In this document: piece by piece, positions 15,417-17,272 of the stretch | How positions within the stretch are numbered: position 1 is the stretch's first letter | Layout of the letters: every line of letters begins with the position of its first letter | Source: Synechococcales cyanobacterium bin31.maxbin.ball.101 | GTDB lineage: Bacteria > Cyanobacteriota > Cyanobacteriia > Leptolyngbyales > Leptolyngbyaceae | Length of the DNA stretch: 32,933 bases | Direction: 5' to 3' | NCBI GenBank assembly: GCA_013298165.1 | Contig: JAAFJU010000044.1 | Location: 1-32,933, forward strand | Program-made: the position numbers and the translations under genes | Notes under the pieces: model-generated | Seen by the model: the letters and a program-made list of their open reading frames with translations, nothing else | Database searches by the model: none | Told to the model about the DNA's origin: nothing

Positions 15417-16397
15417 CTAGAGTCGCGATAACTTCGGTTCAGCCACCGCCGGGAAACTGGCAAAATTGCGGCGAACCCAGTCGAGTCCGACTTCGTTATT
15501 GAGCTTAATCTTTTGAGGACGATCGGAATAGAGTTTTTCTAAAATAGCCCCGTCTTGTTCTAAGACCGTCGTCGTTAAATCCAGGACGTTTTGCTTCATC
15601 AACTTGAACAGTGGGTGATTTGATTTGCCGTAGAGGAGAACGTAGGTGCGGCTCTGAGTGGGCGATTCGGGAATCATGACATGAACTTGGCGAATGCTAC
15701 CGATCGGGGTTTCACCACGAAAAACCACCAACGTTGGAAAGTGATTTTCTAAATGCGCGTTGATTGTTTTAGGCATGAACAATACCGCAGGATTTTGCCG
15801 AATTTCCGCAAAACTGGGCTGACTACGCGGCATATCGTAATAGGCATGGGATTGCAAACCGTTATCGATGAATTGATTAAATTCAACGGATTCGATGCGA
15901 AATAACGATCGATGGGTGCCGTTTTGATGATTGTAATCATGCATGATCAGCAGCAGATTGAGTAAATCTGTTTTGATACTCATATCAGCGGAGATGCCGA
16001 GAAATTCGTAATCCTGGGCGATTTCATTCGCGATCGTCGGAATTGGAATCGCAGGCACCGCACCGCCATAGCTCCAAATGAAATCGCCTTGAATGATCAG
16101 TTCCAAAGGTTTCAACTGCGGCAACGTCGGCTTATTCGATCCCGGCAATACCGTACAGCCCGCCCCATCAAACGCTAAGGCATGGTAAGGACAAACGACC
16201 TTTCCCGCTTCACACCAGCCCTCAGACAGCATCGCACCCATATGCGGACAGGCATTTGGCAAAGCTTGAATCGTCCCATTCTCATCCCGCCACAGCACAT
16301 AATCCTGCCCCAGTAATGAAATTCTCATGGGCTGATTAGGTTTCAGCATCGATTTATGGGCGACAAGCCAAGGCGCACCGGGCAGCATCGAGTCCAT
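15417..16397 (-). CDS. Rieske non-heme iron oxygenase
   Basis: Oxygenase alpha-subunit-like protein of 326 residues. The Rieske [2Fe-2S] ligands are Cys50-x-His52 (ACPHMG) and Cys69-x2-His72 (CPYHAL). The mononuclear iron site is the exact D-x2-H-x4-H motif, Asp154, His157 and His162, in HDYNHQNGTH. It should hydroxylate or demethylate an organic substrate using electrons from a ferredoxin; the substrate is not evident. The frame is open 26 codons further, but GGAGA before the ATG at 16397 and the family N-terminus decide the start. The divergent TetR gene is the likely regulator. The 3' end is duplicated at 15008-15092. Confidence 0.88.
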   Translation of the reverse strand: MDSMLPGAPWLVAHKSMLKPNQPMRISLLGQDYVLWRDENGTIQALPNACPHMGAMLSEGWCEAGKVVCPYHALAFDGAGCTVLPGSNKPTLPQLKPLELIIQGDFIWSYGGAVPAIPIPTIANEIAQDYEFLGISADMSIKTDLLNLLLIMHDYNHQNGTHRSLFRIESVEFNQFIDNGLQSHAYYDMPRSQPSFAEIRQNPAVLFMPKTINAHLENHFPTLVVFRGETPIGSIRQVHVMIPESPTQSRTYVLLYGKSNHPLFKLMKQNVLDLTTTVLEQDGAILEKLYSDRPQKIKLNNEVGLDWVRRNFASFPAVAEPKLSRL

Positions 16398-16399
16398 AG

Positions 16400-16434
16400 G
16401 GATTCTCCGAGGATGATACGATAATGAGGAATCC
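16400..16434. promoter_or_regulatory. Interrupted palindrome in the Rieske/tetR divergent interval
   Basis: GGATTC (16400-16405) and GAATCC (16429-16434) are perfect inverted arms around an A/T-rich centre, between the Rieske ATG at 16397 and the preferred TetR ATG at 16451. It could be the TetR operator. The arms are only six bases, so confidence is low. Confidence 0.3.
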
Positions 16435-16450
16435 GTCGTGTTTTCAGAAT

Positions 16451-17272
16451 ATGACACAATCCTCACGATCGTCAACTAGCCAGCCGTCAACTAGCCAGCC
16501 GTCAACTAGCCAGCCGTCTTCAAATCTCCGCCGTCAACCCAAACAGCAACGTAGTAAGGAGCGAGTTGAATCGATCCTCGATGCAGCGGCGGCGGTGTTC
16601 GATCGGGTCGGTTATGATGCTGCAACGACACATTTGATCGCGATCGAAGCGGGCACAGCGATCGGATCGCTCTATCAGTTTTTCCCAGACAAAGCGGCGA
16701 TTTTCAATGCCATGGAATTGCGGCATTGGGAGCGGGTGCGGGCAATGTGGTCGCAAACGGATGTAGCAGCGATCGCGCAGTTGCCCTTGCGGCAGATGAT
16801 TCATGGGCTGGTGGCGGGGGTTTCGGAGTTGTTTGAGCAACCTGTATCGCGGGTGGTGTTTATTCAGTTTTTTGTGGCGCGGCAGATTTTTCAGTCGATC
16901 GATGAAAGCATGACCCAAGAAGCGATCAACTTCATGGCGAGCATTTTGCGCCAGCGTCAACCTCAGTTGTCTGATGCGAAGTTACGGCGGCTTGCTGAGG
17001 TCTGTGTCACAACGAGTAATGCGCTGATTTTATCGGTCTTACGCAATCCCGATGTCACGTACCAACAGGCAATGACTCAGGAAATCGAAGACTTAATCGT
17101 CGCCTATCTGGAACCGCACATGGGGGATACGATCGGTCATAATGTAATGAAAGTAATGAAATGTCCCCATTGCCGATCGGTCCAAATGTCTAAAAATGGC
17201 TATCGTCGCGGCAAACAATGTTATCTCTGCAAAGATTGCGGGAAGCAATTTGTACAACCTGATGACGAGTAA
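16451..17272 (+). CDS. TetR-family regulator fused to a C-terminal zinc ribbon of transposase (InsA/IS1) type
   Basis: The N-terminus has a low-complexity arm with three exact STSQP units. A TetR helix-turn-helix follows at about residues 28-80 (SILDAAAAVFDRVGYDAATT, then SLYQFFPDKAAIF), with a ligand domain to about residue 225. The last 37 residues are unrelated: MKCPHCRS, then NGYRRGKQCYLCKDCGKQF. This four-cysteine ribbon is typical of the N-terminus of IS1 InsA-like proteins. No further transposase is seen downstream, so an IS fragment seems to have supplied a new C-terminus. The start may instead be the ATG at 16424, which would add nine residues and overlap the palindrome. The Rieske gene, divergent 53 bases away, is the likely target. 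Confidence 0.8.
   Translation: MTQSSRSSTSQPSTSQPSTSQPSSNLRRQPKQQRSKERVESILDAAAAVFDRVGYDAATTHLIAIEAGTAIGSLYQFFPDKAAIFNAMELRHWERVRAMWSQTDVAAIAQLPLRQMIHGLVAGVSELFEQPVSRVVFIQFFVARQIFQSIDESMTQEAINFMASILRQRQPQLSDAKLRRLAEVCVTTSNALILSVLRNPDVTYQQAMTQEIEDLIVAYLEPHMGDTIGHNVMKVMKCPHCRSVQMSKNGYRRGKQCYLCKDCGKQFVQPDDE
16471..16515 (+). repeat. Three exact 15-bp tandem repeats in the tetR 5' end
   Basis: The unit GTCAACTAGCCAGCC is present three times without mismatch at 16471, 16486 and 16501. It encodes STSQP three times in the flexible N-terminal arm. The unit length is a multiple of three, so copy-number slippage would keep the frame. Confidence 0.9.

Follow-up and report, generated by a model that had tools for sequence, protein, structure and literature searches.

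The gene at 16451-17272 of the DNA analysed here (the window, the whole 32,933-nucleotide stretch) is best explained as encoding a TetR repressor, divergent to a Rieske oxygenase gene, whose C-terminus is a domesticated InsA front end that would provide an accessory nucleic-acid contact. We put the probability of this reading at roughly 55%.

Architecture of the fusion protein

The features of the gene itself are as follows.

16451-17272, plus strand: tetR-ribbon fusion gene, 273 aa; the ribbon is included in the alignment of 64 of the 74 strong matches from 388 genomes
Within 16451-17272, plus strand: TetR_N, residues 42-88; TetR_C_15, residues 112-220; linker, residues 226-237
17162-17254, plus strand: IS1/InsA-type four-cysteine zinc ribbon, residues 238-268 (C238, C241, C260, C263), from the IS1_IS1595_Zn match, invariant cysteines and dN/dS
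17144-17159, plus strand: junction direct repeat GTAATGAAAGTAATGA, encoding VMKVM, with fixed GTA and a synonymous-conservation peak

The preliminary description had read a single open frame in which a complete TetR protein continues into a four-cysteine ribbon of the IS1/InsA type, with no further transposase sequence behind it, and the domain profiles bear this out. The frame is uninterrupted; TetR_N and TetR_C_15 exceed their cut-offs with 50.8 and 72.3 bits, and the NCBIfam model IS1_IS1595_Zn matches residues 238-269 in the same frame with 45.9 bits against a cut-off of 28; the Pfam model Zn_ribbon_InsA scored 11.0, below its cut-off of 26.1. The tail cysteines are paired (C238/C241 and C260/C263). 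The protein terminates 4 residues past residue 269, with no HTH after the ribbon, and the InsB catalytic part was not found in the frame, which stops after the ribbon. An alternative in-frame ATG at 16424 would make the protein 9 residues longer; the ATG at 16451 is conserved in 31/31 aligned rows of the window's clade.

From 51 sequences, AlphaFold2 predicted the fusion protein with a mean pLDDT of 87.6 and a pTM of 0.72. The tail was modelled as a three-stranded ribbon (residues 241-270, block pLDDT 92-93), and the block values were 87-98 for the TetR body and 70-78 for the less certain linker. Foldseek matched the predicted fold to solved TetR structures, for example 2oer, EthR2 and Rv0078, and the 50 best PDB matches span 185-212 columns, a length that fits the TetR body. 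A PDB sequence search with the tail returned mostly tandem zinc-finger look-alikes, which we set aside.

When the tail was searched against its own genome, the sole other match below E 0.2 was a second TetR fusion. This paralogue (L002), located on contig C105 of the same genome (G000; L126:3474-4430, minus strand), carries a whole InsA unit of ribbon and HTH and is divergent to a cytochrome P450 gene (4470-5855, plus strand; Pfam), with a similar operator between them.

Distribution and conservation of the tail

The preliminary description had suggested looking for TetR homologues with the same tail in related genomes, and they were found there. At E <= 1e-45, 70 of the 388 genomes of the class (42/160 genera) have a match to the fusion protein, and 64 of the 74 matches listed, from 61 genomes and 35 genera, run at least as far as residue 267; because this threshold favours tail-bearing members, 64/74 is not the true tail share of the family. 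In other genera among 58 relatives, the protein including its tail is 48-73% identical, and the three other genomes of the window's genus gave no match at E <= 1e-45. A scan of named genomes yielded at least 78 loci, 77 of them labelled cyanobacterial; three with broken frames (L101, L103 and L104) were removed from the 78 before counting. Alignment A2 omits six ribbon-bearing loci (L046, L048, L049, L067, L073 and L080) to reduce the number of close relatives. We also observed that the copies in two metagenome-assembled genomes labelled Gloeobacterales (L058) and Gracilibacteria (L069) resemble those of other cyanobacteria, which may reflect horizontal transfer or a binning error.

All four tail cysteines are invariant in 51/51 aligned fusions, as they were in 17/17 of an earlier set. 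With the 23 closest of 465 pairs taken together, the ribbon had a dN/dS of 0.063, compared with 0.141 in the ligand domain and 0.028 in the TetR HTH region. By this measure, the ribbon is kept under strong purifying selection in many lineages.

These results also bear on the suggestion that the tail is a read-through scar, or an assembly error, without function. Part of that suggestion stands, in that the fusion began as read-through of an IS end, as described below. However, a scar present only here is refuted by conservation: the tail occurs in 35 genera with every cysteine invariant and a dN/dS of 0.063, so the scar reading is not supported and we regard it as extremely improbable.

Origin of the tail from an IS1-type element

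In 87 aligned rows, the TetR body carries one of four tail states: ribbon, ribbon+HTH, an SRRTLQRDL domain, or no tail. The ribbon+HTH tails end where the InsA part ends. The SRRTLQRDL tail, carried by L022-L025, L084, L087, L089, L090, L094 and L098, is unrelated to the ribbon and has no cysteine pairs. It is probably a winged helix, the indication being a weak DeoR-type HTH match in L090 (18.3 bits, below the cut-off of 21); L022 gave no match. Where tested, TetRs with this tail have the same operator, and they stand mostly beside the same Rieske gene.

In the tree, every tailed row falls into a single clade of 76 rows with a support of 100/100, and 11 tail-less rows form the outgroup. Three tail-less rows (L065, L095 and L100) are placed inside the clade, and the ribbon-only rows L079 and L082 are nested within ribbon+HTH rows. 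The tree requires 13 tail changes, whose direction it does not fix. One ribbon protein cut by a contig end (L060) is labelled as tail-less in the tree and in the matrix operator test; the junction box counts and divergent-gene counts use its corrected label.

Two ribbon+HTH tails, those of the paralogue and of L064, match positions 1-81 of the 199 in the IS1 transposase model with 91.0 and 84.7 bits (cut-off 100). For comparison, L123 and L125 are IS1 elements of relatives with InsB motifs downstream, and 19 and 18 of 25 bases pair between their ends. The two elements start with GGCGTTGCACAAT and GGCGTTGCATAAT, so that their terminal repeats open with GGCGTTGCA(C/T)AAT, a start that reads ALHN when translated in the frame of the ribbon. 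By eye, GGCGTTGCA also lies upstream in 3/8 further IS1 loci with a readable ribbon (L136, L141 and L143), and the other five have different ends.

The terminal-repeat motif TGCA(C/T)A (TGCAYA) is present at the junction in 14/17 ribbon+HTH fusions, read in frame as (L/M)H in 13 of them and in another frame in L076; one such junction is TTG CAC AAT AAA GTA ATG, encoding LHNKVM. The window's own paralogue has the variant TTGCCCAAT, which likewise precedes L115, and L114 has CTGCCCAAT. With the variant included, the IS-end motif occurs in 15/17 ribbon+HTH rows versus 1/42 ribbon-only rows, the single case (L102) looking like chance. The window junction retains only GTAATGAAAGTAATG, and its IS-end stretch is gone. 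Loss of the HTH and loss of the IS end mostly go together in the expected direction, but with 3 or 4 independent contrasts the association is not significant.

Given relatives that keep ribbon and HTH and that read TGCAYA in frame at the junction, we conclude that an IS1-type element inserted into the 3' terminus of a tetR gene was taken over, in the simplest case a single time, and shortened afterwards; the longer members thus have a linker that derives from an IS1-type left end. The claim that the tail is a captured IS1/InsA-type module is accordingly supported by the junction motif and the IS1 terminal repeats. In the proposed course of events, an ancestral tetR received an IS1-type element at its 3' end, and the left terminal repeat and leader of the element came to be translated in frame as the linker (L/M)HNxVM(KVM). 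The start methionine of InsA turned into an internal residue, with the InsA ribbon and HTH retained and the catalytic part lost. Several lineages, including that of the window, probably dropped the HTH later and kept the ribbon alone. The tail states of the whole clade are most simply read as a single ribbon+HTH capture, after which the HTH was lost more than once and the SRRTLQRDL domain came in as a replacement. HTH remnants 3' of ribbon-only genes were also sought: among the best 25 by score, only L061 exceeded the best of its 40 shuffles (43 vs 38). No HTH remnant having been seen there, we infer the loss of the HTH from the tree.

Intact IS copies beginning with the ribbon, which the preliminary description had considered for this genome, did not turn up: at E <= 1e-30, IS1 transposases are absent from the window's own genome and present in 31/39 genomes of the family. 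Cyanobacterial InsA-like genes (L114-L122) encode 94-136 aa counted from Met. They resemble the longer tails in having the same ribbon and HTH with no evident InsB part, and mostly lack an InsB motif downstream; unlike the window protein, they are not fused to a regulator. TGCACA directly precedes the start codon in 5/9 of these genes and the CCC variant in two more. They may be domesticated repressors. In two of the nine (L119 and L120), a short InsB-like motif can be read in a different frame, so IS remnants may be among these genes.

The putative operator and the divergent oxygenase gene

The following features lie between and beside the two divergent genes.

15417-16397, minus strand: Rieske oxygenase, divergent, the likely target; Pfam Rieske 69.1 bits; start at 16397 taken from the conserved N-terminus M..MLPGAPWL
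16419-16449, plus strand: putative TetR operator site 1, 27 bp ahead of site 2; its sequence in the window is degenerate and scores 12.7 bits
16446-16476, plus strand: putative TetR operator site 2, extending over the start codon and first codons of tetR; from the motif alignment over 58 loci, the cross-class test and the synonymous peak
16446-16475, minus strand: promoter-like site for the Rieske gene, TTGACG, 16 or 18 nt, then CATATT or TATTCT, inside site 2

The adjoining gene had already been named as a Rieske oxygenase, and the Pfam score agrees. Its orthologue is the immediately divergent gene in 58/76 loci: 40/42 with the ribbon, 12/16 with ribbon+HTH, 4/6 with the SRRTLQR tail and 2/12 without a tail. 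No other cluster of neighbours occurs in more than 13 loci. The non-Rieske divergent neighbours include P450-like and FAD-monooxygenase-like genes, named by resemblance; those called P450 (cluster c5) were so called from their resemblance to the Pfam-identified P450 of the window's own genome.

Between tetR and the divergent gene, we found the intergenic motif AAAATATGAC-N-TTCATATTTGTCAAG, which has dyad symmetry of the AAATATGA-N-TCATATTT type. It is double in 47/58 loci with a spacing of 26-35 bp (40 in L039), and in the window's clade the start codon of tetR falls within site 2. Since the matrix over 58 loci was refined on those same loci, a 29-site matrix from the window's clade served as the independent test. 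Applied to 45 other loci, it found a site of at least 12 bits between -700 and +60 of tetR in 29, and 0 matches of at least 12 bits in the rest of the 698 kb. The site was found in ribbon (10/10), ribbon+HTH (10/16), SRRTLQR (6/6) and tail-less (3/13) loci, the 13 tail-less ones including the cut ribbon protein L060, which has no upstream DNA; 6/16 ribbon+HTH loci missed the threshold. The operator site of the own paralogue scored 13.9 bits. By eye, seven tail-less outgroup loci (L105, L107-L110, L112 and L113) have a similar motif with one base fewer inside and one T more before GTCAA. In the window's own genome, a strict operator pattern with one mismatch allowed gave 1 site, beside the paralogue, and 1 reversed-control match, and it missed the window's own site.

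Because the same operator accompanies the ribbon, ribbon+HTH, another domain or no tail at all, the tail does not choose the operator, and the proposal that it could change operator choice is not supported. The sequences suggest an operator that predates the tail and is unaffected by it. The TetR part alone would select the operator, and through the operators between the two genes TetR probably represses both the Rieske gene and its own. Two promoter-like sites for the Rieske gene were found vs a mean of 0.3 in shuffles, from consensus matches only. With the promoter-like sequence contained in site 2, occupation of that site by TetR should obstruct transcription of the Rieske gene. Release induced by a ligand is usual for TetR repressors and would be expected here.

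In the window, positions 16470-16518 hold three exact 15-bp tandem units, encoding STSQP repeats in the TetR N-terminus and starting inside operator site 2; these units are absent from 16 aligned relatives.

The operator results also affect two other views of the ribbon. It might be a metal or redox switch, in which loss of zinc or oxidation of cysteine alters the TetR dimer and frees the oxygenase promoter. The four invariant cysteines and strong purifying selection would fit such a sensor, as would oxygenases as likely targets (Rieske in 58/76 loci, P450 beside the paralogue). However, tails without cysteine pairs keep the operator (6/6) and mostly the target (4/6), which fits a sensor less well, and we consider a switch unlikely. 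Zinc ribbons often mediate protein contacts. The ribbon could thus be a contact or folding module for a dimer or higher-order assembly with no nucleic-acid role, and an operator that is defined without need of the tail agrees with this. Yet the alternative tails, an InsA ribbon+HTH and a domain with a sub-threshold DeoR-type HTH, point to DNA binding, and a protein module leaves the fixed DNA at the junction unexplained; we hold it to be very unlikely.

A fixed repeat at the junction

The direct repeat GTAATGAnnGTAATGA lies inside 57/64 ribbon fusions. The fixed pattern is GTAATGA-NN-GTAATGA with both spacer bases variable, and the codons of V232 and V235 are GTA in 31/31 rows of the window's clade. 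In the 31 genes of this clade, synonymous conservation exceeds 0.34 at two places only, codons 1-12 (operator site 2) and codons 227-238. The best junction window reaches 0.513 vs a TetR-body mean of 0.104 (sd 0.059, maximum 0.336, 191 windows), and the ribbon is at background (mean 0.103). Judged by this synonymous constraint, the fixed junction repeat inside the coding sequence is a new element. Both boxes are present in 39/42 ribbon-only rows and 6/16 ribbon+HTH rows.

Several simple accounts of the repeat were rejected. As a regulon-wide site, the pattern gave 91 matches in the 388 genomes, only 34 of them outside fusions vs about 66 for a reversed-pattern control (hand count). Eight of the 34 outside stretches were examined: one (L155) belongs to a split tetR-ribbon copy and the other seven have no ribbon. 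As a further TetR operator, the junction scored -19.3 on average with the matrix, and elsewhere in the gene the best value was higher, at -13.0. An overlapping frame is likewise not indicated, with +1-frame runs of 3-17 codons upstream and no long second ORF. The copy in L155 (644-2937), from another genome, is a second tetR-ribbon gene split by a transposase gene shortly before the junction.

Another view is that the old InsA start still works, making the junction a translation start region from which a free ribbon or InsA-like peptide is produced besides the fusion. At least 90% of 51 rows keep M233 and M236, and the junction mRNA is weakly structured (-3.8 kcal/mol per 41 nt, where the gene averages -6.4), although 23% of gene windows are weaker. 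Against this, the fixed bases are the GTA before each ATG, which other InsA-like gene starts mostly do not share, and by eye no conserved Shine-Dalgarno sequence lies upstream. We consider an internal start rather improbable.

Possible role of the tail

In IS1 of E. coli, InsA acts as a repressor and needs both its zinc finger and its HTH for repeat-specific binding of the ends, according to one report (PMC12428005). By analogy with InsA binding to IS1 ends and repressing, the captured tail most likely serves as an accessory nucleic-acid contact, and it might strengthen occupancy or cooperativity at the operators or touch the junction repeat in its own gene. However, E. coli InsA depends for binding on an HTH that the window protein does not have, so its ribbon by itself may be unable to bind DNA. 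Further points against the overall reading are the absence of the tail from clade members L065, L095 and L100, the presence of two boxes in only 6/16 ribbon+HTH rows, a junction repeat unlike the TetR operator, the ribbon+HTH loci that missed the operator threshold, and the IS1 loci with different ends.

A more specific version would be that TetR captured an IS1 DNA-binding unit together with its target, and that the tail still binds the IS end, or a derivative of it, in the junction codons, forming a self-anchored loop or a roadblock. Loss of the HTH would then accompany loss of TGCACA, with the GTAATGA repeat remaining. If true, one end of TetR would hold on to the promoter and the other to the tetR gene itself, about 690 bp downstream. 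We regard this version as doubtful.

Relation to known systems

The window protein resembles the TetR family in its HTH and ligand domain, dyad operator, divergent likely target and fold matches, and differs in the added C-terminal ribbon of the InsA type. With InsA, the IS1 repressor, it shares the type of ribbon, and the related fusions also keep the HTH and the IS-end motif; InsA is itself a repressor in IS1 (PMC12428005). Unlike InsA, the window tail is fused to TetR and has neither the InsB part nor the HTH. Among the titles listed from open-licence literature, no TetR-InsA or TetR-zinc-ribbon fusion appeared.

Among animal transcription factors, host regulators have gained transposase DNA-binding domains by transposase capture. 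Here, in contrast, the capture is bacterial and on a TetR repressor, with its birth still legible, since the terminal-repeat motif of the element can be read in the linker of the longer members. Four tail states with one operator, and usually one target, constitute a natural experiment on the addition of a second module to a repressor, and the fixed repeat inside the coding sequence offers a new element that may be tested directly.
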